From NCBI GenBank assembly GCA_029931535.1, contig JAQPZY010000374.1, positions 62,001 to 126,000 of the forward strand: a DNA stretch of 64,000 bases, read 5' to 3'. Shown here piece by piece: positions 11,756-51,922 of this stretch. The notes beneath the pieces were generated by a model that was given only the letters and a program-made list of their open reading frames with translations, was not told the DNA's origin and did no database searches. A program made the position numbers and the translations under genes. Numbering within the stretch: the stretch's first letter is position 1; each line of letters opens with the position of its first letter. This DNA comes from Margaritifera margaritifera (lineage: Eukaryota; Mollusca; Bivalvia; Unionida; Margaritiferidae).

Positions 11756-12106
11756 ACATGTTTTCAGTATGTTAGCATTATAGAAGCGGGTTAAAATATC
11801 TGGTACCGGCGTATTTTAAAACGGGATAGGGAGAAAGAAAAAAGAAAATTAATGACGATTAACATGGAATTCGTATTTCTCTGATAAATAAAATAAGTCC
11901 CAAAATCTTGGCGCTATTTTTCTAAATATCTTATACGATAAAATGCAAGTGTTCAAAACATCGCCGAAGGATTGAATGCGATGTATTAAAAGTGTGTGAA
12001 GTGATGCTTATGAAAGCGAGGCGGCAAAGCACATGCGCGTGCAATTAGTCTTCAGATCAAAACGATCATTACGCATCTTAATCACCTTGTCTGTTAAGAT
12101 TTAACA

Positions 12107-12346
12107 TCTAACCCACACACTATACGTCTTCCGTCTACTCAAGGGAAACCAACACAAAATTTCAATGGCCCACAAACACGTATATATTCATCTAACCCGC
12201 ACACTATACGTCTTCCATCCACTCAAGGGAAACCAAGACAAATTTCAAAGGGCCCACAAACACGTATATATGTGATGTTATCTAACCCGCACACTATACG
12301 TATTTTATCTACTCAAGGGAAGCCGACACACAACGTCAAAGGGCCC
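12107..12346. repeat. 84-93 bp tandem repeat, 3 copies
   Basis: Unit: ATCTAACCCGCACACTATAC, GTCTTCC, then CTCAAGGGAAACCAA, AATTTCAAAGGGCCC and CACGTATATAT. The three copies are conserved in the partner (51372-51618). LINE A is inserted at the AAAGGGCCC of the third copy. Confidence 0.9.
12338..12346. repeat. Target-site duplication of LINE A, left
   Basis: AAAGGGCCC here is repeated at 15151-15159. The partner duplicate has it once (51610-51618), so this is a true insertion scar. Confidence 0.85.
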
Positions 12347-12350
12347 GAGA

Positions 12351-12449
12351 ATGGCACGAACTAAGCAAACGGCAAGAAAATCTACTGAAAAAGTTATATA
12401 CCCCCAGTTTTCTAATACGGAGGACAGCCAGCCTTGCAGTTTCTTTTAG
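12351..12449 (+). CDS. Upstream ORF starting with the histone H3 N-terminus (chimeric, 32 codons)
   Basis: ATG at 12351, only 4 nt after the element's 5' boundary, opens a frame reading MARTKQTARKST, the invariant first 12 residues of histone H3. The frame then passes into LINE 5' UTR sequence (EKVIYPQF...) and stops at 12447. The H3 match ends at about 12387. H3 is normally about 136 residues, so only the tail is present, including Lys4 and Lys9. The head most likely came from an H3 transcript by template switching at the end of reverse transcription. Whether it is translated is unknown. It could act as a short upstream ORF ahead of ORF1. Confidence 0.85.
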   Translation: MARTKQTARKSTEKVIYPQFSNTEDSQPCSFF

Positions 12450-12699
12450 TGCCTTTCTAGATAAGTATATGAATCATGAATTTAAATATTTCAACATAGA
12501 AATATTTGTAAACAGAAATGAATTGAAAATAACATTATTATACCTGTGAAAACTATATCTTGTGATACAGAACAAAGCATTTGAAGACAAAAATGAACAT
12601 ATGAATGTGAATACCTGTGAAAACCATATATGGTGACTATTATACATTGTGACAAGTATATTTTGTAAACATCATACGTGATATTGACATAGACCAGAA
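12388..12699 (+). promoter_or_regulatory. 5' UTR of LINE A
   Basis: Non-coding leader between the H3 head and ORF1. The stretch TTTTAGTGCCTTTCTAG with following ATAAGTATATGA aligns with the 5' leader of B (about 50345-50416, minus). No promoter motif is recognised. Confidence 0.6.
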
Positions 12700-14053
12700 A
12701 TGTCCGTGCTTGAGCAATACTTCGACACGAAGCCGGTTTTCACAAAGCAGGGCGGAAAGCTCGTGACGGCCAGGAGACCAGTGGTACAGGGACTGGATAT
12801 ATCCCACTACCTACCAAATGAAAGGCCGAGCTGTGGAGAAACTATAGCCGCTATACAAGCGACAGGAGTAAATAAAAAAGACATAGCAGCACTATCATTC
12901 GGCGGAAAAGGCACCCTAATAATACATCCGACGGGAGCGAAACCACTTCTAAACACAAGCACCGTGAAAATTGGTACCAAATTTGCAAACGTATTTGTAG
13001 TACCACCGATCGAAAGAGAAATACAAATCAAACAAGTCGACGTAATCCTTACAGAAATTCCGCTGGAAATCCCCATCGAAGCAACAGTTGAAAGGTTTAA
13101 ACAGAAATATGCAATGGAAATAACATCTTTCAAAACGGCCACCTACAAACTCTATGAAACTATCCGGACGGGCGCAAGGATTCTTCAAGTGGCGAAAGGA
13201 AATGAAGAAAAATCCCCCCCCCCTTCTTCTACATCCACAGTTTCATGGCGAAATTGGGGTACAGAGGATGCATTTTCCACATAAAATGCACAAAATGTGC
13301 GAGAAAGGGCCACGACCCCAGAAAATATATAGTACAAAAAGAGTCAACACAGGAAGAGCAAATTACAACAAACAACGAGCAACAAGAAGTGGAACCAATG
13401 GAACAGGAAACAAGACTGCAGACCAGGCCAGAAATGGATATACTGGCAAACAGACACCTAGTATCAAATTTCTTGACACAGCATAATCTAACGAGTCAAA
13501 CAGTGAGTCCAGCAGCAAAGGAAACAAACAAAAAATGCCAACACCCCAACGAGAGGCGCCTATAAGAACAAATCAACAACAAATCACAGAACCAAAAATC
13601 CCATCACGGGTGGCGAAAACACATGAAGAGCTAAAGAGAACCAAACAACATGAACTAAAGACTCTACCACAGATAGCGACACCACAGGAAGCGCCAATAA
13701 ATATACCACAACTAACGACAACAGACGTAACAACACCACCACCACCAACAACAACAACAGCGATAGGTAAAAAAGTAACAACGGCGGCACCCCAAGAAAT
13801 GCCTCACAGGGAGCCAGCCAAAGAAAGGCACACCAAACAAGGAAAACGAATAATAAAGAAAAACAGGGAAAAATATTATTATCGCTTAGTCTATAACTCG
13901 GAATCAACAGACGAAGAAAGCCAGCCAAAAGGGAAGAGGAAATTCATCTCCCCCCTTACAACCAGAGAAAGCCAAAAAGAAATAGCACTTAGAAAGGAAA
14001 TACCATATATGTCAAAAACACTGTTAAACATATTTACAAATATCTATATATAA
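12700..14053 (+). pseudogene. LINE A ORF1 (RRM-like region plus CCHC knuckle), two frameshifts
   Basis: The ATG at 12700 (MSVLEQYF) aligns with the start inferred for B (MPILQHHF). Residues 1-100 align with B and E through a conserved RPxxxE...G(V/I)...IHPxGxxPLL block. Residues 105-170 (PPIERE...VDV...EIP...TIRTGAR) look like the RRM-like domain of Tx1/L1-type ORF1 proteins. A homopolymer shift in the C-run at 13214-13223 moves the frame into PPFFYIHSF, then GYRGCIFHIKCTKC. The zinc knuckle is CxxCxxxxHxxxxY, its last Cys replaced by Tyr. A second shift near 13525 moves to the frame at 13535-14053, whose acidic NSESTDEE tail matches C and B. ORF1 proteins bind element RNA in the RNP. This copy is non-functional. 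Confidence 0.85.
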
Positions 14054-15150
14054 TTAAATAATAATAATAATAATAACAAAAAAAATATGTATATATTACA
14101 AATATGTAACATGAATAATAATATAGCCTAAAAGCAGAACTAACCTTAAGATAACATATCTTAATAATGAGTCTAACAATATAATATTGAACTAGCTAAA
14201 TAATAGCATGCATAAACCCAAATCTATTACGCCTTTACGGGAGGGTGCGCGAGAATAGACCCCCTCGCTCACTTTGCCTAATACTGGAATCTAAACATAA
14301 TAATATACAATATAAAACTAATCATAATAACAATATACTATAAACTAAAATTCAACAATATACTATAACAATAAACATAACTATATATAACAATATGATC
14401 TAACTCTAATAATATAAAATGTATAATAACAGAAATCATAAACCTTTTGCTTTTGTGTATGTCTGGTTTGTGCGGATATATCCAAACCAGCTACATGCAC
14501 AAGGCAGCCCAGAAAACATAATCGTATATAACAATATGAACTAACTCTAATAATATAAAATATTTAACAACAGAACAAATAACAACAACCCTCCTATCTG
14601 AGACATGTGAGCGCATGCCCAGGCCCACATCGTCTTACAATGGGAATCTCCAAAATTAAACAAATAAAAAAATAACATAACTTACTAATAACGAGAGAGA
14701 GAGAGAGAAGGAGATATCTGGTGACAAGTAAGCCACAACACACGCACACACCAATATAAATAAAAATTAGAATATAACTCTGAAAATTTGACAAAAAGCC
14801 CAAAATGTATACATAAATCTAAAACACAAACATTATAAAGAAAACCAATCTTAACAAACTCAAGCAAGACCTCGGGCGGAGGTCACTTTGAATTAGAAAC
14901 TGACTCAGGGTGGAAAGGAAAGGAAATCAGCCCAACAGGAAATACATGAAGGGAGGAAGGAACTGACCCAGAAACCTGAACTCTAAAAAATTTGAACTCT
15001 AGGAAACAAACCTAGAAGAACCGCTATCAAAATTAATTTTATAAATAAATACTAAAACCTTCGGGTATGTTTGAAATTTATGCGGGGACATCTCTATAGA
15101 TCTAACCAGCTATATATGATGGGAAGGGCTAAGAGATGACCACAAATAAA
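14054..15150 (+). other. 3' UTR of LINE A, no ORF2
   Basis: AT-rich tail with AATAATAATAATAA near the start and a GA-repeat at 14694-14707. A GACCTCGGGCGGAGGTC stem-like segment is followed by AAGGGAGGAAGG, then ACCTTCGGGTAT...GGGGACATCT, and the end is CCACAAATAAA. The same succession occurs in C (42950-43290) and B (minus), and from the GA repeat on in D (minus). A weaker version occurs at the end of E. Confidence 0.8.
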
Positions 15151-15172
15151 AAAGGGCCCAAGCAGACACACA

Positions 15173-18043: not shown

Positions 18044-19648
18044 CTTTTATTTGTGGATCCCTCTCCGACCTTTAGCTATGTTAAACTAAAAGGCCTTTAA
18101 GGTATCCCCCTTTGTGCCGAAAAGTATGAAAAAAGTATTTTATATATGTTTGTTTCCCCCTAAGGTCTGTTGTTGTGGGTTTCAGTAGAAAAAATAGAAT
18201 TTTGAAAGAAAAGTTTTTATTTTTTTTGATTGTTTTTGATTAGGGATGTTCTTGATTTGCTTTTTTGATAGAGCGTACTTGTTTAGGTTCCCGTTTTCAG
18301 GTTCCCATTCGTTCCGCCCTTTGGCCAAAATAAATTTACACTATGGCTTGTACTACCCTCCCCAGAAATTACCCTTGCGGCTGGTTTTCTTGCCATATTT
18401 GTATATAGTAGTTACAGTGATCCTTGCCAGGGATCTGTATAAGTTCAAGTGTGTGCTATATGTATATATGCTATATATGTTTTGTCGTATGCTATATCCC
18501 CTGTGTTCTTGTTTGGACTGGCTGTAAATTTTTCAAATCTTGTTCTAGTTTTTTATTTAGAATTTATATTAAAGAAGAGGAAAAAAAATCTATAAAAGGT
18601 TTTAAGAAGGAGACTGGTGGTGCATCATTTCTAGTCTTCGACCGAGTTTGGGCTATCTCGTCTCGAGACCTATACTATGTGCTCCCCCTGTCTCCATATA
18701 TATCTAATGGTCTCAAAGCCATTTGAATTTTGTTGTTACCCCTTTTAAGAGGGGGAACCTATGTAGTATAAAAAAAATAAAAAAAGGAGAGCTTGTTTTA
18801 TGATGTATGTATGTATGTATGTAGTGTGTGTTGGACGGGAAGTAGAGCTCGCTGTTGTTAGTGTTTTATATTGTTTCCCCTTTGTTTTTGTTTTTTTGTT
18901 TCGTTATATTGATTTGTTATGCCTCATTTTTAGGTACTCTGATTTGACCCATGTAGCATAGGCGTCTAGTCGTCATCATATCTTTCTGTGAGTTACATAA
19001 CCCTCCTGTGTTTTATGTATTTTTTTGTTTTGTTCCTATATGTAGTGTTAAATTATATTAGTTCCTGCGAGTTTCTCCCTTGTTATTAGTTGTTATTTCT
19101 CAAGTGTTCTTGTCTTATGCTTAGGTCATTTATATGAGGTTAACCTTTCCAACATGTGAGAGAATAGGATCCAGGTCGCCTTTACGACGTAAATCCCCCC
19201 TAATGGGGGGGGGGGCATACTGGTTCCCATATCTTACAGTGGTTGTACTTGGTTCCTCTAAGAAGTTAATATCTGTATTATAAGTTCATTTTTGAGAGGT
19301 TTACCTTTGCAACATGTGAGAGAGTGGTTCCCATCTCCCACAGTGGTTGTACTTGGCTCCTCTAAGAAGTCAGCATCACAATTATGTTGGCTACTTTTAG
19401 GTCTAAAGGATTTATTTTAAATTTAGATTGTCTTTTAACAAAAAAGAAAAAAAGAAATTTAATATATCTATAAAAAAAAGAAAAAAAAATCAAGAGTGGG
19501 GTTGATTACTGAGCGTTTAAATCTCGAATCACGTCTCCCTATTTTATTTTCATATAGACAAGAACACTGTTGGTTATTTATTATTTGGATTATGATATTT
19601 TATATTCCAGTGCCTTGTTTTCTACATTTTCATTTTCATTTAGTTAGG
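18044..19648 (-). other. 3' UTR of LINE E
   Basis: In element sense it contains a GATCCCTGGCAAGGATCACT segment and GGGGAGGGTAGTAC, which correspond to GACCTCTGGCAAAGGTCACT and GGGAGGTGAGTACC in C, and it ends TCCACAAATAAAA. A duplicated module at 19140-19380 (ACATGTGAGAGA and CAGTGGTTGTACTTGG, each twice) and a GTAT repeat near 18804-18822 are also present. Confidence 0.7.
19140..19380. repeat. Duplicated module within the LINE E 3' UTR
   Basis: CAACATGTGAGAGA occurs near 19151 and 19310, and CAGTGGTTGTACTTGG near 19238 and 19340. The two parts have different spacings, so one copy has gained or lost about 57 bp, including the G-run at 19205-19213. Confidence 0.75.
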
Positions 19649-22600
19649 TTAGTTATTATCTTTCTTTCCACACTGAATCATTATATCTATAATGTAGTCT
19701 ATTATTTTTAAATATATATTATTATTGTTTATTCTGTTTGTGTATAGTATTTGTTTTCCATAATAGTTATATTTAGTTTTAATACTATCAATTATTTTGA
19801 TACGTGCTCTTCTGGTTTCTTCACAATATAGCATTACATGTTTTTTGGTGTATATACATTTGTTACATATGGGGCAATTTGATCCTGTTTTTATTATACG
19901 TTTTTTGTGGGCTAGCTCTCCTGTGGACCACACATTATGTAAGTATAGATATATCATACTTTGTTTCGATGTTGATTTTATTTTTGTCCATTTTCCCCAT
20001 ATTCCTTTCCAGGCTACTTCTTGATTGTTCCATTCGACTTTTATTCGTACTTTACTGTTGATGTCTTGTTTCAGTATAGGGTATATATTTTGATCTTCTG
20101 TTTCACTCCATATTTTTGTAGTATTTGTATATTTAAGAATTATATTTTGAGTATATTTCATGGCTTGAGGTGGACTTAGCAGTTTTTTGTAATTTATTAT
20201 TGTTGTATATCTCTGGTATTGGTTTTATCATAAAACCAAACCAGTAGATATACAATGAAGCCCATGCATACTTTGTATTATCCTTAATATGTCTTAATCT
20301 ATTTAAAATATTTGAAATTTGTTTATATTTGAGATGTGGGATATTTAAACCCCCTTCTGTTTTCGGCTTGTATATATATTCTCTGGCGAGGTAATGTAAT
20401 TTTCCTCCCCATATAAAGTATATTATAGTTTTATCAATTGTATCTAGCATTTTATCATATAGGTCTATGTTGTTCACTATGAACCAGATTTTGCTATATA
20501 TGTATGTATGAGCAATTTGTATTCTTTGTATTAAGTTTAATTTTATATGAGACCACAGTTCAATGTTATAATGTATTTTTGTCAATATTTGGTTATAATT
20601 TATATTCATGGAGTTTTTCCCGTATACTATCCCTAAGGTTTTTATTTCTTCTTTTATGAGTCTTGGAGGTAACCCTGGGTGGTTTCCCCGCCAATTTCCT
20701 ATAAGCAAGATTTCTGTTTTTTCGTGGTTTATCTTCGATCCTGAGGCTTTCCCGAAGGCATTATATTCATCCTCCAGATGTTTAAAAGAGTAATCATCTT
20801 TAATGAAATTGGTGCAGTCATCTGCGTGCTGCACCATTTTTAATTCCTTGTCTAAATTCGGAATTTTAAAACCTTTTATATTAGTGTTATTATTTATTTT
20901 TGTGCAGAGTGTTTCTATCGCTATGACATATAATAGCATTGATAAAGAACACCCTTGCCGTACTGACCTTTATATTTTAAAAGTGTCAGTGGTAGCTCCA
21001 TTGACTTGTATTTTTGAATTTATGTTTTTATATAATATATTTACCCATGTACAGAAGTTATTTCCAAAACAATATTTCTTTTGAACCATGTCTATGAAAT
21101 TATGTTCTAGCCTATCGAATGCTTTCTCTTAGTTATATAATATCATTGCCCCTTTTTCCCCCTTTGTGTTTATATAATCAATAGCTGTTTGTATGGTTAG
21201 TATGTTATTTTGTATATTTCTACCTTTTTCACCGCAACTCTGGTTTTCATTTATTATTGTTCCCATGCATTCTTTAATTCTATTGGTTAGTATTTTGCTT
21301 AAGATTTTATAATCAGTATTTAACAAGGAGATTGGCCTCCAGTTTTTGAGTTCTTTACTATCTCCTTTTCCTTTATAAATTATGGTAATGATTCCCTCTT
21401 TCATACATTTTGTCATTTCATTATTTATAATTATATTATTGTATACTAGTTCCAAAGATGGAATTAGCTGGTTTTGGAAAGTTTGATAGAAATTTGCCGT
21501 GAGTCCATCAGACCCCGGCGACTTTCCTGTATTTAGCTGTTTAATGGCTTCTTCTATTTCGTTATTTGTTATGAATTTATCACAGTTTATTTTATCTTCT
21601 GTTTGAATCTGTTTGAAATCAATGTCATTTAAATAGTTGTTTAGTTTAAACTGTTCAATATTTTGGGTTGTATATAACTCTTTATAAAATTGCATTATTT
21701 CTGTCAAAATCATTTTTTTGTCTGTATATATTATGTTATCTTTTATTAAAGAGTCTAAATTTCTTTCTGTTCCTTTTCTTGTTTCTTCTCTTTTATATAA
21801 TCCTCTTCCCCTTGTGTATAAATCATTATATGTGCCGGCTCTTACTGCCAGCCATTTCTTTTTATATTCTTGTATCAGATCATATTTCTTTCGAGCTATC
21901 TCTGTTTCTAATGCGTTCCCCTCATTATTTAGAATTATATTTAGTTGTTTCTCCATTGTTTTCCTGTTGTTATTTTTATCGGTGCAATATTGTTTAGTTG
22001 TTTCTTTAATGTCTTTTTTTAGTTGTTTCCATTCCTCTAATATATTGAAAGTTTCTGTATTATTAAAATTTTCTATTTTACTTTTAATCATTTCTTTATA
22101 TTCTTCTTCTTCTAATATTGCGTTATTTAGTTTCCAGTTACCAGGTCCCCATTTTGTTCTTTGTATGATCTTTACTATTAATTCTACAGGGTAATGATCT
22201 GATATCACTATTTCCTTTATGCTACATTTCTTAACTGAGTATTTTCCTGTTTCTGTGGTGTAGAATTTATCTTGTCTACTACCTTTATTTTCCCCATATA
22301 AATATGTATATTCCTTTTTATCCTTATTTTGAAGTCTGTATGTATCTGTTAATTTGTTGTTTAATATGTATGTTTTTACTTTTTCTAGTATGTTTTTATC
22401 TTTGTCAGATAGACCTGTGCTCCTGTCAATATCTGACTCGATCCAATTAAAATCTCCTGCTATTATGGTGTTTTCCATAGAATAGTTTTGAGCATAATCA
22501 TCCAATTTATTTATGAAATTAATTTTATTTTTATTATATTGTGGGGGCACGTATACATTTAGTATGTGCCAATTATTAGATTTTATATGCAAAAGTCTTC

Positions 22601-22861
22601 CTTTGAAAAATTCGTTTGTTGTTATCACTTCCCATGGTTTAGTATTTTCATTGTTTTTTTATTATAATTGCTACTCCTGCTATTTTTGTAGTGTTATTAC
22701 TTCTTATTATTATTGCATTAAATTTTTCTTCAATCTGACACGCTAATTTCTTATCTATGTTATGCGTTTCCTGTAGCAGTATTATATCGTAATTTATTTG
22801 CCAGGTCATGTAATTTGTCTAGTTTATTACTGTTTATTCCATTTATATTCAAAGATAACAT
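19649..22861 (-). pseudogene. LINE E ORF2: endonuclease plus reverse transcriptase, inactivated
   Basis: Starts MLSLNINGIN at 22861, the canonical opening of an L1-type endonuclease. After a frameshift near 22793 comes LLQETH. After another near 22650 come NVYVPP, IAGDFN, SRQDKFYT (usually SRLDY) and SDHYPV. The RT follows in one frame: GKSPGSDG, WRPISLLN, TNRI and a motif A reading ILYN-stop-EKAFDR. The first catalytic Asp is thus Asn and a stop follows (21129). VRQGCSLS and HADD (YxDD box with Tyr to His) come next, then the SGxKxNxxKTE region. A further stop lies near 20973 and a frameshift near 20150. The C-terminus (19649-20161 frame) has CPICNKC...H...C, the usual zinc-knuckle-like tail. 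Layout matches Tx1/L1-type ORF2, about 1,070 codons. The family is clear; clade naming is tentative. Confidence 0.92.
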
Positions 22862-22977
22862 TCAGAGGTTGTGTCCCTCCATGGTGTCTTTGGGAAAATG
22901 CTTCGATAATCTAAGTATTTGTATATTTCTCAAAAGTTTTTATATTATTATGTTTATTATTATTATGTTAGTCATTA

Positions 22978-24331
22978 TATTAAATTTGTTTTCTCTTGGA
23001 CATATTCGGCAATCGCACTTACATTTTCTGATCTTTCAGCTGACGTTTCGTCCTCATTATTTGTGTCAGTTCCTAGATTAAGTTTATTTTTTGCCCTATA
23101 TTGTTCTATTGTGGTTTTTTGTCTTGTAATTACGGTCTCCGTAATTCCTTCCTTATTTGTTTCTTCTCAGAGGTTCCTTTGGGGTTTAGACCCTTGGTCT
23201 GTTTCTCCCCATTCACCTGAGGGTGTGCTGTCATGTTTTCTTTTTTGGGAGGGGAGTGGGGTAGAGGTGAGCTGGATTGCTTCCTCTTCCATTTGCATTT
23301 CTTTTTCCGTGCTTAGTGTATGTATCTCTACTTTTACTAGCTGATTTATTGTGATTTGTTTATTTAGGTTGTGTGAGGGGGGGGGCATCTTCCTCTTCAG
23401 AGGTTGTTTCATCGAAATTTGGCTCGATACGTTTGTAGTAAGGATTGTCTTTTGTGTAGAGTTCCTTACTTATCTGACTTGTCTTTTGTTTTTGTGTCTT
23501 TTTGGTTCTTTATATCCTTTTCACTACCTGGTAGTTTTCTTCCACCTTCTCGTGGAAGTTTTCCCACTCTAGTTCTACCTTTTGGCCTGATTTATTTGCT
23601 ATGACGGTATTTGTGTCCTCCTCAGGTATTTCTAGGTTATATGTTTCCTGATTTTCTGTGTCTAAAGCGACATTAGTCTCAGGAATGTCATACGTTTCCT
23701 GGGTGTCTATGTCTAAAGCGACATTAGTCTCAGGAATGTTTGCTGCTGCTTTCGCAGCATATGCATTTGCGGGTGTTCTAGGCAATGGGTGAGGGCATTC
23801 CCTAGGTACGTGTCCAGTTTGTTGACATCTGGGGCATTTTCTGTGATGAATACACCCCTTCTACCAAGTTTTGAGTTAAAAGCCCATTAGACAGAAAAAG
23901 GTGGGTAGTTTTTTGGCTTGTTCAATCTTTACAGTGACTATCCTTACCCCAGATTTGATAGTGGGGAAACCCCATATGTTTGCTGTTCTCGATTTCAGAA
24001 CTTTAGTTTGTAGCTTTTTTTCCATTTTTCCCTTGAGTTCTTCCGTAGAGATCTCTATCGGCAAACCCGATACATGGACCTCTACGGACTTCGCCTCCAC
24101 TATTCTTTTTATGGGTGGGGCGTCCATAATTTTCACTTTTTTCCCTAGGATATCTATTATCCCATTTGGAAGAAGTGGGATTTCTCCCTTTGGGTAGAGG
24201 AAAAATTGTCCATCTCCGCCACTTTGAAAGGTGTCAACGTCAGTGATGTTGACTCCTCTGGTGACGAGGGATGACATAATTTCCGCTGGTTTTGGGCGCT
24301 CTTCGAACCTTAAATGCTCGAGGCTGATCAT
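22978..24331 (-). pseudogene. LINE E ORF1 (RRM-like region plus CCHC knuckle), inactivated
   Basis: ATG at 24331 (MISLEHLRFEERPKP). The RPxxxE...YPKGEIPLLP block and PPIKRIVEAKSVEV...LPIEIS align with A and B, which carry about 37 more N-terminal residues, so the true start of E may lie further upstream. Two in-frame stops follow TFFCLMGF, at 23876-23878 and 23861-23863. Beyond them the same frame continues KGCIHHRKCPRCQQTGHVPREC, a complete CxxCxxxxHxxxxC knuckle at 23795-23836, the only intact one besides that of B. A duplicated IPETNVALD peptide lies near 23640-23740. A stop lies at 23510 and a run of G at 23378-23384 marks a frameshift. The tail is acidic and Gln/Lys-rich and ends near 22978. 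Expected role: RNA-binding chaperone in the retrotransposition RNP. Confidence 0.85.
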
Positions 24332-24490
24332 CTAGCACCCGCCAGGGCGGTGCGTTAGGAGGATCCTGTCAGCTCCCTCACTCACTACTTCCGCCCGGAA
24401 GTAACTCTCAAGTTTTTTCCCTTCCATTTTGGGAAAACAGTGTATTAGTTTTCCGTATTTGAAATAAATGTTTTAAATGGTTTAGGCAAC

Positions 24491-24785
24491 AATATCTATA
24501 GATATATATGTATGAATATATCGTATAAAAATAACGAGAGAAGGATATTTCAGAGAGAGAAGAAGCAAGGAGAGTATGAGAAAATACAAAACAAAATACA
24601 AAGAAAATTCAAAAAGTACAATAGACTGACTATGTCTATAGATATAGATGTAAATGTATCGTGTGGAAATAGCGAGAGAAGAAAATTTTCAGAAAGAGAA
24701 GGCAGGGAGAGTATGAGAAAAAAAAGAGGAAAAATACAAAGAAAAATACAAAGAAATTACAAAATACAGAAAATACGATAAACTA
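24491..24785. repeat. Two tandem monomers (period about 141 bp) in the LINE E 5' UTR
   Basis: TCTATAGATAT...TATCGT...AACGAGAGAA is followed 141 bp later by TCTATAGATAT...TATCGT...AGCGAGAGAA, and both continue with GAGAGTATGAGAAAA. Repeated 5' UTR monomers are known in some L1 elements, where they carry promoter activity. That role here is inference. Confidence 0.8.
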
Positions 24786-24924
24786 ACCTTACTCCACGGC
24801 ACGGGAAGACCGTGGATTAAAGTAGAAGGCTGTGAAGCCCTATACTTGCTTCAATGTTACTATGTAGTATGTAAAAAACCAAGATTTTACATGTAGAAAT
24901 TCTGAGCGATGTGAGCGATGTTCA

Positions 24925-24975
24925 GATCCGTGTGATCCGTGCACCTTTGCTGCCTGCTGCTTGCTTTGGAGGCAT
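24925..24975 (-). CDS. Short ORF at the extreme 5' end of LINE E (MPPKQAAGSKGAR...)
   Basis: An ATG lies about 7 nt inside the element's 5' boundary and opens a 17-codon frame, MPPKQAAGSKGARITRI, ending in TGA. Its position matches the H3 head of A. An MPPK start with Ala/Lys/Gly-rich sequence is reminiscent of invertebrate histone H2B N-termini, but the match is too loose to call. Confidence 0.3.
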
Positions 24976-26934: not shown

Positions 26935-27890
26935 AAGAATGTGGAAAATGGTACATCATGGTCGAAGAGGAAATCTGTATGAAAATACAAAGAGCTATCA
27001 ATACAGGCAAAAGATGCACGTAACTACTGACACAAGCACAGAGACTGTGGACATCATGGACAATGAGGACATGTTTACTCAGACCAATAAACTATCAATA
27101 CATACTAACGACGCACGTAATTATTGAAAAAAAACATAGGGACTGTGGACATTGGTACATCATGGACAACCTGGACATTTTTACACATCTAGTCTGAACT
27201 ATCAATACAAACTACGGACACACACTATTAACAAAAACGTGGAGACTGTGGACATTGGTACATCATGGACAACGAGGACATGTTTAAACATCTTGTCTGA
27301 ACTATCAATACAAACTGCGGACGCACACTATTAACAAAGTCATAGAGACTGTGTACATTGGTACATCATGGACAACGAGGACATGTTTACACATCTTGTC
27401 TGAACTATCAATACAAACTGCGGACGTACACTATTAACAAAGTCAAGGAGACTGTGTACATTGGTACATCATGGACAACGAGGACATGTTTAAACATCTT
27501 GTCTGAACTATCAATACAAACTGCGGACGCACACTATTAACAAAGTCATAGAGACTGTGGACATTGGTACATCATGGACAACGAGGACATGTTTACACAT
27601 CTTGTCTGAACTGTCAATACAAACTGCGGACGCACACTGTTGACAAAGTCATGGAGACTGTGGACATTGGAACATCATGGATAACGAGGACATATTTACA
27701 CATCTTGTCTGAACTATCAATACAAACTAAGGACGCACACTATTAACGGACGGACACTACTAACACAGAAATGGAGACTGTGGACATTGGTACATCATGG
27801 ACAATGAGGACATATTTACAGATCTAGTCTGAACTATCAATACAAACTAAGGACACATACTATTAAAGATAAACACGGAGACGACGGACA
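26935..27890. repeat. 103-bp minisatellite, about 9 copies
   Basis: Unit: GAGACTGTGGACATTGGTAC, ATCATGGACAACGAGGACAT, GTTTACACATCTTGTCTGAA, CTATCAATACAAACTGCGGA, then CGCACACTATTAACAAAGTCAT. Units start near 27039, 27140, 27242, 27345, 27448, 27551 and 27654. Adjacent pairs around 27240-27650 are most alike, suggesting expansion in two-unit blocks of 206 bp. The 60-codon frames with MVHHGQRGH starts come from the repeat. Confidence 0.95.
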
Positions 27891-38216: not shown

Positions 38217-38640
38217 ACCAGCCTTCACCTCTTAGATTAGTTCTGAAATCACCAGTGTTATATAATTTGTTTTGACACTTATCTGCAGTTTAAAGCTGGG
38301 AGCATTATACAAGTAGAATAGTAAATAACACTTCTATAAAATGAACAAACACGCACCAGCTTTTACCTGTTAGATTAGTTCTGAAATTACCAGTGTTATA
38401 TAATTTGTTTTGACACTTATCTGCAGTTTAAAGCTGGGAGCATTATACAAGTAGAATAGCAAATAACACTTCTATAAAATGAACAAACACGCACCAGCCT
38501 TGACCTCTTAGATTAGTTATGAAATCACAAGTGTTATATAATTTGTTTTGACACTTATCTGCAGTTTAAAGCTGGAGCATTATACAAGTAGAATAGCAAA
38601 TAACATTTCTATAAAATGAACAAACACGCACTATTACATT
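38217..38640. repeat. 138-bp tandem repeat, 3 copies
   Basis: TAGATTAGTT occurs at 38233, 38371 and 38509, exactly 138 bp apart, each followed by CAGTGTTATATAATTTG (AAGTG in the third) and the block-b sequence ATCTGCAGTTTAAAGCTGG. Copies are nearly identical, so expansion is recent. Confidence 0.95.
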
Positions 38641-44130: not shown

Positions 44131-44266
44131 GCTTAAACCAGAGGTAGTCGTTTCATTTTAAACAAAATACAAAAACTAAATTAGAGGAAAACTAAACATT
44201 ACAAACTGCGCAAACAAAAAAAGCTGTCATAATTTAAGACTCAGAATTAGTGTGCTCATCGTAAGA

Positions 44267-44645
44267 AACAACCATGCATACATGATAGGTATTGTATTGA
44301 AGGATATAAACAACCATGCATACATGATAGGTATTGTATTGAAAGATATAAACAACCATGCATACATCATAGGTATTGTATTGAAGGATATAAACAACCA
44401 TGCATACATGATAGGTATTGTATTGAAGGATATAAACAACCATGCATACATGATAGGTATTGTATTGAAAGATATAAACAACCATGCATAGATGATAGGT
44501 ATTGTATTGAAGGATATAAACAACCATGCATACATGATATGTATTGTATTGAAGGATATAAACAACCATGCATACATGATAGGTATTTAATTGAAGGATA
44601 TAAAAAAACATGCATACATGATAGGTATTGTATTGAAGGATATAA
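44267..44645. repeat. 42-bp minisatellite, 9 copies
   Basis: Unit ATACATGATAGGTATTGTAT, TGAAGGATATAAACAACCAT, GC. Copies are nearly identical, with single changes such as GGATAT/AGATAT. Because 42 is a multiple of 3 and the unit lacks stops in several frames, long open frames arise on both strands (14-residue repeats such as NHAYMIGIVLKDIN); no protein is claimed. Confidence 0.97.
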
Positions 44646-50423: not shown

Positions 50424-51166
50424 GTTTATTTGTGGTCGTCTCTTAGCCCGTCCCAGCATATATAGCTGCTTAGAACTGTAGAGACGTCACCGCAAAAATG
50501 TCAGAAGTACCCGAAGGTTTTAGTGTTTTATTTTTAAAGTAAATTTCTAGCTTCGGTTCCTCTAGTTTTGTTTCCTAGAGTTCAAGTTTTCTAATGTTCA
50601 GGGTTTCTGGGTCCGTACTTTCTTCCCTTCAAGTATTTCCTGTTGGGCCGATTTCCTTTCCTTTCCACCCTGAAAGTTATAAATCTCAAGGGGACCTCCG
50701 CCCTGAGGTCTTGTTTGATTTGTTAGTTCTTTTTATTTTATAATGTTGATGTTTTGTCTTTTATATTTATGTTTTGGGCATTTCGTCAAATTTTCTGAGT
50801 TAGAGTTCTGATTTTTATTTATATTGGTGAGTGTGATGAGTGCATGTGTGGTGGCTTACCTGTCACCATACAGTTACTTCTCTCTCTCTCTTTGTTAGTT
50901 TCTTTATTAGTTCACTATATTATTTAGTTTTTTTAAAGGGTTTCGACCATGCGACACTGCTAGTGGGGAGAGGATTGCCCGTTCGCGTGAGTCGGAACAC
51001 CTTTATTAGATGTTTTAATGTGTTATTTAAGTTTATTGTTATTATGTAATATATTATTGGAGTTAGTTTTAGAGCATTTAGATTTCCGGGCAGTTTGCTT
51101 TGTTCGGGCCACGTTGAGACTATTTTCGTCAACGACTTTCCTTCGCAAGTATGAGTGTAAGAAATT
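50424..51166 (-). mobile_element. LINE copy D: short element with a histone H3 head and LINE 3' UTR tail
   Basis: In minus sense it starts at 51166 with about 50 nt of leader, then H3 codons (51112-51080). It then joins sequence matching the A 3' UTR from about 14540 (ACTAACTCCAATAATAT), including the GA repeat, 'GGTGACAGGTAAGCCA' and ACCTCAGGGCGGAGGT. It ends CGACCACAAATAAA at 50424. ORF1 and the LINE 5' UTR are absent. It is flanked by the 8-bp duplication listed at 48017 and 51167, with B nested at its 3' end. Confidence 0.8.
51080..51112 (-). pseudogene. Histone H3 5' fragment at the head of LINE D
   Basis: On the minus strand, GTG (in place of ATG) is followed by ten codons reading ARTKQTARKS, residues 2-11 counting the start Met as 1. 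The frame then continues into non-H3 sequence. About 50 nt upstream, to the element boundary, is non-LINE sequence that may be the H3 mRNA leader. Compared with the A head, codons 2-11 differ at six bases (GCA/GCC, ACT/ACA, ACG/ACT, GCA/GCC, AGA/CGG) and every change is synonymous. Confidence 0.88.
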
Positions 51167-51371: not shown

Positions 51372-51618
51372 AACATCTAATCCCACACACTATACGTCTT
51401 CCGTCTACTCAAGGGAAACCAACACAACATTTCAAAGGGCCCACAAAAACGTATATATTCATCTAACCCGCACACTATACGTCTTCCATCGACTCAAGGG
51501 AAACCAAGACAAAATTTCAAAGGGCCCACAAACACGTATATATGTGGTTTTATCTAACCCGCACACTATACGTCTTTTATCTACTCAAGGGAAGCCGACA
51601 CACAACGTCAAAGGGCCC
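51372..51618. repeat. 84-93 bp tandem repeat, 3 copies (partner of 12107-12346)
   Basis: Same unit and copy number as in duplicate 1, here uninterrupted by LINE A. Confidence 0.9.
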
Positions 51619-51922
51619 AATCAGACACACAAGGATGTATATTTGTGACGGTTTCAAAAGTTTAAAAAGGGCTAAGCTTGGACTGGGGGAGGGGATCCTA
51701 TCTTTCATTTTCCTGGGTGGATTTTGTCCTAAGGGAATTTTGTCCTGGGGGATTTTGTCTGTACCCCACATTGACCATATTTATTAATTGGATTTCTTTG
51801 ATATGTCACTCTGTTAGCTTAGCAGGGTATGTTACGGCAGTATATTAATGTTCCAATATGGCCTAATGTTTGCGAATTAAACTTTGATCTAATTAAGCTG
51901 GACTGTTGTTATATAACCCCCC

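Follow-up and report, generated by a model that had tools for sequence, protein, structure and literature searches.

An ORF1-only retroelement begins with histone H3 codons

The window analyzed here, the whole 64,000-nucleotide stretch of Margaritifera margaritifera DNA, contains at 12347..15150 of the plus strand a 2.8-kb ORF1-only retroelement, LINE A, which we delimited by reading the sequence and comparing copies and which ends in CCACAAATAAAA. A 9-bp target-site duplication (TSD), AAAGGGCCC, flanks it on both sides (12338..12346 and 15151..15159, plus strand), and its insertion site is an 84-bp host tandem repeat (CATCTAACCCGCACACTATACGTC...; 12105..12346) outside the element. An ATG at 12351 opens the first 12 codons of histone H3 (MARTKQTARKST; ATG and residues 1-11; 12351..12386, plus strand; throughout, H3 residues are numbered from Ala1, and codons with the ATG as 1). 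The frame runs on through 20 codons of the element's 5′ UTR (EKVIYPQFSNTEDSQPCSFF), which yields a chimeric upstream ORF of 32 codons at 12351..12449 (plus strand, including the stop codon at 12447-12449). The initial annotation had placed the ATG four bases inside a TSD-bounded element, with 12 exact H3 residues at the head of this chimeric ORF, and element start, coordinates and frame all proved correct. LINE A provides the sole 12/12 match to MARTKQTARKST in the window; the next-best match (10/12, minus strand, 51112) belongs to a second element, LINE B.

The element had initially been called a LINE. It is indeed a retroelement with a TSD, but it is ORF1-only, its ORF1 (12700..14053, plus strand) is broken into open stretches at 12700-13284 and 13535-14053, and a search with LINE C of the same window as query found no EN or RT match. 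These features make LINE A a non-autonomous element related to an L1-type LINE and lacking ORF2. HAL1-type half-LINEs have likewise kept ORF1 and lost ORF2; LINE A differs from them in host, in family and in its histone mRNA 5′ end. Ahead of the ATG lies GAGA (12347..12350, plus strand), probably the remnant of an H3 5′ UTR cut short, which is too short for statistics and not above shuffles. Because this leader comprises just 4 nt, LINE A looks like a slightly 5′-truncated daughter and not like the capture event itself.

Searching the genome (2.45 Gb) with positions 12200-12900 revealed copies that share the junction. Homology of L003, L005 and L006 begins at query bases 146-148, with starts at window positions 12345-12347 and different flanks, which places the H3 piece inside the element. 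All three hold the tail in LINE A's frame, with one stop codon in L003 and Q as residue 2 in L005; L004, from the same search, has no H3 tail, and L007 is decayed or cut at the tail region. The copy on contig C1095 has LINE A's flank too and reflects duplication of the locus, not an independent insertion. One could read the H3 piece as an H3 pseudogene at the insertion site, beside the LINE, and some LINE copies do sit in H3 genes (see below); yet the TSD of LINE A encloses the piece, and the same stretch recurs in frame in copies with unrelated flanks. Chance similarity, already held implausible in the initial annotation, is excluded by the 12 exact residues together with matching host H3 genes and host leaders in relatives. 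We give the two readings practically no weight.

Related L1-type elements

LINE B and LINE C both lie on the minus strand. In the short LINE B (50425..51164), an H3 cassette is joined to sequence that by eye resembles a LINE 3′ UTR, with the 3′ end CCACAAATAAA at 50435-50425; an ORF1 fragment follows. The 5′ cassette of LINE B (51077..51164) has an H3 leader that starts at 51164 and agrees with the C1607 H3 gene in 47/51 positions, and H3 codons from 51112 in which the ATG has become GTG. LINE C (18044..24975) is L1-type, with ORF1 from about 24427, an interrupted EN-RT ORF2 at 22658-19652 and the 3′ end CCACAAATAAAA; its 5′ end (24940..24975) carries the first 12 codons of H2B, MPPKQAAGSKGA, the same as in host H2B genes. 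Part of its ORF2 matches L1 ORF2p residues 16-496 (E 5.9e-34), with Pfam RVT_1 above the cut-off and Exo_endo_phos_2 scoring under it. No clear TSD was found at the ends of LINE C.

Elsewhere in the genome, L038 (C183) contains an H3 leader, ORF1 and L1-type EN and RT pieces between H1-like repeats. Its RT part matches L1 ORF2p (2.9e-25), and the CCACAAATAAA signature was not found in this 9.9-kb locus. L044 is flanked on both sides by the TSD ATAAATTAAAAAC; a zf-CCHC hit in its ORF1 (E 0.012) stays under the Pfam cut-off, the ORF1 of L043 has no listed zinc knuckle, and a protein search with L044 ORF1 returned nothing. As far as sequence features go, EN, RT and TSDs identify the lineage as L1/Tx1-type, with a putative placement in the Tx1 clade.

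The H3 tail in dispersed copies

Searching with the tail peptide of L006 brought up 29 matches, a set biased to the tail; in none of them does the sequence go on as H3. So that H3 played no part in the choice, we also took 10 copies that match beyond the tail (nine from q499-501 onwards, the C59 copy from q417) and fetched their upstream DNA. The 5′ end is reached in five of these, and all five have the tail in frame (12, 11, 12, 12 and 11 of 12 residues); three others break off or decay within the tail, and two break off downstream. The copies on C632, C791 and C621, from the same list and found earlier via the H3 query, also have the tail.

Across 38 copies, we counted 22 extra synonymous codons, spread over all 11 post-ATG codons, and 21 distinct non-synonymous codons including two stops, each in a single copy. 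When only the 10 copies outside the H3-peptide query are considered (LINE B, from the window tail scan, among them), 17 synonymous stand against 5 non-synonymous changes, compared with a neutral expectation of about 28-30% synonymous. Leader types of the copies do not track the downstream families, which suggests exchange.

Two further observations concern the layout of these elements. Many of them (L003-L058, L095, L097, including two that start with H4) carry by eye a splice-donor-like GTRAGTAT or ATAAGTAT about 40-80 nt past the histone start; we weighed a splice joining the H3 tail to ORF1 and discarded it, as the GTRAGTAT motif is, by eye, not consistently GT. The 5′ ends of L059, L060 and L007 lie directly or closely behind the 3′ end (CCACAAATAAA) of another element, in head-to-tail stacking.

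Host H3 genes as the source of element 5′ ends

Host H3 genes form tandem arrays on C642, C308 and C528, with further genes on C1607, C19, C1339 and C947, and they match both the leaders and the first codons of the elements. The C528 gene agrees with L044/L045 in 25/25 leader positions and in the codons as well, the C642 gene matches the leader of L053 (47/50), and the C1607 gene matches those of L042 (49/52) and L025 (46/49) in addition to LINE B. Leaders of 29 of the 39 copies align to host H3 5′ UTRs above the best of 200 shuffles (L041 marginally). The ten that do not are LINE A (GAGA only), L002, L003, L005, L010, L027, L028, L030, L052 and L056. In L022 the leader alignment is weaker and reaches -72.

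To describe the borders of the captured pieces, we used a 300-base query covering promoter, leader and 67 codons of a C642 H3 gene, and scored 40 of 222 candidates. These comprise 21 H3 genes or large parts thereof, 16 dispersed pieces (91-99%) and three others (C817:357497, C1339:121574 and C791:1343953). All 16 dispersed pieces begin between -54 and -47 of the ATG, eight of them precisely at -54, which is the A of CATTC, and promoter sequence is absent from all. We take CATTC to be the histone cap motif, and hence -54 to be the presumed cap site. At the 3′ side, 11 pieces end at q136-140 (codons 12-13) and the rest at 143, 146, 146, 156 and 156. The 5′ junctions of L090, L091 and L093, which we read, start with ATTCTCACAC in different flanks, and L094 begins a few bases further in; attachment to a LINE was read directly in L053, one of the 16 pieces. 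Six of the 16 (on C1339, C817, C308, C226, C669 and C524) lie 7.5-7.7 kb from an L075-family 3′ end in the right orientation, a spacing from which full-length elements probably measure about 7.5-7.7 kb. As a separate observation, C1339:121574-121659 holds an H3 promoter and part of the leader (q1-86), with the rest of the gene not adjacent.

Judged by these borders and matches, the element 5′ ends are starts of histone mRNAs, acquired repeatedly from different genes and with RNA-type borders, and their position at the presumed cap site may reflect transcription of elements from a host histone promoter. The proposed capture of an H3 transcript end is thus well supported, and goes beyond what had been suggested in being recurrent, in drawing on several H3 genes and in extending to H2B and H4 (see below).

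The matches to host genes also bear on whether the peptide itself matters. On a mimicry reading, one ancient capture has been kept because the translated MARTKQTARKST peptide binds readers or writers of H3K4/K9, for example blunting silencing. We first favoured selection on the peptide because of the synonymous variation. In support of this reading, the tail is in frame, with A at -3 and with G at +4, elements whose ORF1 proteins are just ~38% identical have kept as many as 12/12 residues, and the variation that copies share within the 36 nt is synonymous. The host H3 leader matches demoted this explanation. Repeated copying from host H3 genes (C528 for L044/L045, C642 for L053, C1607 for L042 and LINE B) produces the same pattern, H2B and H4 starts occupy this place as well, and in individual copies K9, R8 and R2 are affected by stops or replacements. 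A YY1-type site (ATGGC) would be another conceivable cause of the conservation. We now regard mimicry as quite improbable. Conservation of the tail would follow from recopying of host H3 genes that are themselves under selection, and since each amino-acid change is private to one copy and the common variation is synonymous, the H3-tail peptide is probably a passenger, whose presence would need no function to explain it. Of the earlier suggestion that the element could express an H3-tail peptide, the ORF stands, and a meaningful peptide finds no support beyond it. More generally, perfect histone-tail ORFs can arise in a transposon without selection for mimicry, which calls for caution in reading such motifs as functional.

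H2B and H4 starts

Host H2B starts with MPPKQAAGSKGAKK. L044 and L045 open with 13 and 14 H2B codons, respectively, continue with an H3 leader and tail, and then show a second H2B-like start. With a host H2B query we obtained four pieces from q73-77 to q137-141 and one from q100 to q140 (from alignment coordinates alone); the other matches were H2B genes, one of them split (on C542), and an H1::H2B satellite. In the split gene (C542:3287866-3291530), the leader and ATG region match 3.5 kb apart, seemingly through an insertion in the 5′ UTR. H2B matches starting at residue 7 had been considered as LINE-interrupted H2B genes; five that we read (L084-L088) are instead copies of the satellite, in which an H1 C-tail is fused to H2B from about codon 7 with a period of ~1.74 kb. 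This satellite occurs on C668, C349, C318, C885, C751, C1281 and other contigs, and many of the 150 scored H2B matches resemble it in start point and spacing.

A host H4 query, meant as a negative control, was positive, with five pieces that start near the expected cap and have five different ends. Of three continuations read, that of L096 leads into a 5′ UTR 85% identical to those of L055 and L056, which are H3-cassette elements; those of L095 and L097 match none of the sequences compared. The habit reaches beyond H3, and the end is clustered in H3 and H2B and not in H4.

These pieces bring in template switching as a second way to obtain histone starts. During target-primed reverse transcription at ordinary sites, the RT would leave the LINE RNA for an abundant histone mRNA and copy the latter to the cap; a resident H3 tail would guide later jumps by homology, refreshing the cassette without insertion into a histone gene. 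Starts at the cap site fit this equally well, and the five different H4 ends, the run of L096 into an H3-related 5′ UTR and the stacked H2B, H3 and H2B-like starts of L044/L045 speak for it. Site-preferring switches are described for Magnaporthe in the available part of PMC2104539. As for entry points into the partner mRNA, H4 ends vary, whereas H3 ends cluster (11/16), and a switch by itself gives no reason for the break to fall early in the mRNA as opposed to its 3′ end.

LINE 3′ ends in H3 genes

We searched for LINE 3′ ends with a query made of such an end plus 34 nt of H3 and scored 40 of 440 candidates. Four of the 40 abut H3: two run fully into H3 at residue 7, and two do so elsewhere (C817, C1339). 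In L075 (C642) and L074 (C1339), the LINE 3′ end CCACAAATAAA is joined at the same base after the residue-7 GC, and the junctions read GC/ACGGAAATCC and GC/GCGCAAATCT, respectively, with two H3 types and an identical LINE part over the compared region. The two look like independent insertions at one base, with gene conversion as the alternative. In L089 (C817) a related LINE is joined to H3 at residue 32 (ACGGGTGG), and the fourth 3′ end, on C1339, has its last base at 90257 and abuts an H3 fragment starting from residue 16 (90256), as taken from coordinates alone. A strict single site holding most copies is not what we observe, as the four junctions fall at three positions (residues 7, 7, 16 and 32).

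Several dispersed 3′ ends also touch the target sequence. On C104, C469, C95 and C308 they extend into the residue 7-12 target for 13-16 nt before the sequence diverges; the C104 flank reads ACGGAAATCCACC followed by other sequence, and the C531 flank, scored 5 nt past the end, reads ACGGACTAAGC, that is, ACGGA and then non-H3 sequence. The distance from the residue-7 junction to the cassette ends is 13-17 nt, which fits a normal TSD. In L059 the 3′ end abuts another element's H3 tail at the residue-7 place, so that H3 tails in dispersed copies can themselves be targets. An H3 gene on C791 keeps its promoter, breaks at ACCG and continues in A-rich sequence, which may be LINE 3′ UTR (a low-complexity match).

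The 3′ ends also crowd near histone genes. Five histone-bearing contigs (C642, C1339, C308, C226 and C817), which together span 2.85 Mb, 0.12% of the genome, harbour nine of the 40 scored ends against 0.05 expected, and 5/36 remain when the four H3-abutting ends are removed, where these contigs were chosen after seeing the matches and the query itself holds 34 nt of H3. On C528, the 3.2-Mb H3 array contig, there are 0 of the 40. Both junctions of one insertion in a single H3 gene were not found among the loci examined, and the 5′ flanks that we read of long elements with H3 on the 3′ side (C1339, C817) are non-H3.

Template switching alone leaves LINE 3′ ends inside H3 genes, two of them at one base, without explanation, and equally the 3′ flanks reading ACGGAAATCCACC and the crowding on histone contigs. 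We consider it rather unlikely as the main route.

Insertion and co-transcription as a proposed route

Our overall reading, in which we have reasonable confidence, is that LINE A derives its H3 start from the 5′ end of a host H3 mRNA and that the lineage reacquires histone mRNA starts, probably via insertion into histone genes and co-transcription. For the route taken by itself, insertion followed by co-transcription from the histone promoter, our preference is slight. An L1-type LINE lineage and its ORF1-only offshoots carry at their 5′ ends the beginning of a histone mRNA, usually H3 but also H2B and H4, from about the cap site up to roughly codon 12. Some copies would insert early in an H3 gene, the best supported site being GC/ACGGAAATCCACCGGA at residues 7-12, and targeting would predict complete insertions bracketed by ACGGAAATCCACCG(GA). 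Driven by the histone promoter, such copies would give an RNA running from the H3 cap to about codon 12 and on into the LINE, which could be reverse-transcribed elsewhere. LINE A would descend from an RNA of this kind, and its H3-tail upstream ORF would be a by-product of histone-promoter use.

We rank this route above template switching because of the early junction, the LINE ends at the matching H3 base and the concentration of copies around histone genes. Several findings weigh against it: H4 ends vary, the junctions in H3 occupy three positions, the 5′ flanks read on C1339 and C817 are non-H3, and no gene was found with both junctions; moreover, most copies lie outside histone genes, and the 40 scored matches include no conspicuous cassette ending at residue 16 or 32 plus a TSD. 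The residue-16 junction and the contig crowding pull in opposite directions, the one on site strictness and the other on histone targeting, and left our estimate unchanged. Both co-transcription and template switching may act.

A bolder version, which we put forward tentatively and think somewhat doubtful, is that of a LINE lineage with histone genes as landing site, H3 residues 7-12 above all, and as promoter. Its rounds would start from the cap, presumably in S phase, and its transcripts would first translate an H3, H2B or H4 N-tail micropeptide that could mark or decoy chromatin readers. Histone genes are multicopy like rDNA and strongly expressed in dividing cells, and retrotransposition would, if this is true, be tied to S phase. 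The cassette would also serve as a natural tag, recording the histone gene from which a given copy set out and the base where its transcription began.

Comparison with known systems

Site-specific LINEs (R1/R2 in rDNA, Keno/Utopia in U2 snRNA genes and spliced-leader LINEs) resemble the present elements in having 3′ ends that fall on a single base of a multicopy gene, of which we have two independent-looking cases, and in plausible transcription from the host promoter, with several 3′ flanks here being target sequence. They differ in that the target here is a protein-coding histone gene, and in that the copies here are mostly dispersed and bring the host leader with them. The targets named in the available text of PMC4640811 are rRNA, SL, tRNA, transposon, microsatellite, telomeric and U2 sequences, and no word beginning with "histone" occurs in that main text. 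Our literature search (open-licence PMC text, titles and abstract starts) yielded, among the matches listed, no histone-gene-targeting LINEs and no histone mRNA starts on LINEs; protein-coding histone genes as LINE target and promoter would, if true, be a new niche so far as the searched literature goes.

Other systems share single traits. Mammalian LINE-1 5′ transduction and promoter co-option, as covered in the accessible part of PMC13174262, also place host first-exon sequence at the LINE 5′ end and co-opt a host promoter. They concern individual insertions, whereas here one class of host genes is reused across a lineage and the H3 borders are nearly fixed. The WEIRD/MGL elements of Magnaporthe and U6/L1 chimeric retrogenes, in the portion of PMC2104539 available, likewise fuse a 5′ part from another abundant RNA to a LINE, with preferred switch sites; in our case, histone mRNAs serve as partners and contribute just their first ~60-150 nt, and H3 genes hold LINE junctions. 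A transposon also multiplies H3 sequence in the fungal hAT case (excerpted text of PMC6710886), where histone H3 was captured and amplified. That is gene capture by a fungal DNA transposon, and not an mRNA 5′ end serving as the element's own start.

Other repeats in the window

Neither Rfam (at gathering scores) nor a tRNA scan gave any hit in the window. The 84-bp tandem repeat at the LINE A insertion site is present on many contigs and adjoins both H3-tailed elements of the window (12105-12346 and 51374-51619). Further tandem repeats in the window have periods of 103 bp (27051-27866), 138 bp (38217-38631) and 42 bp (44266-44645).
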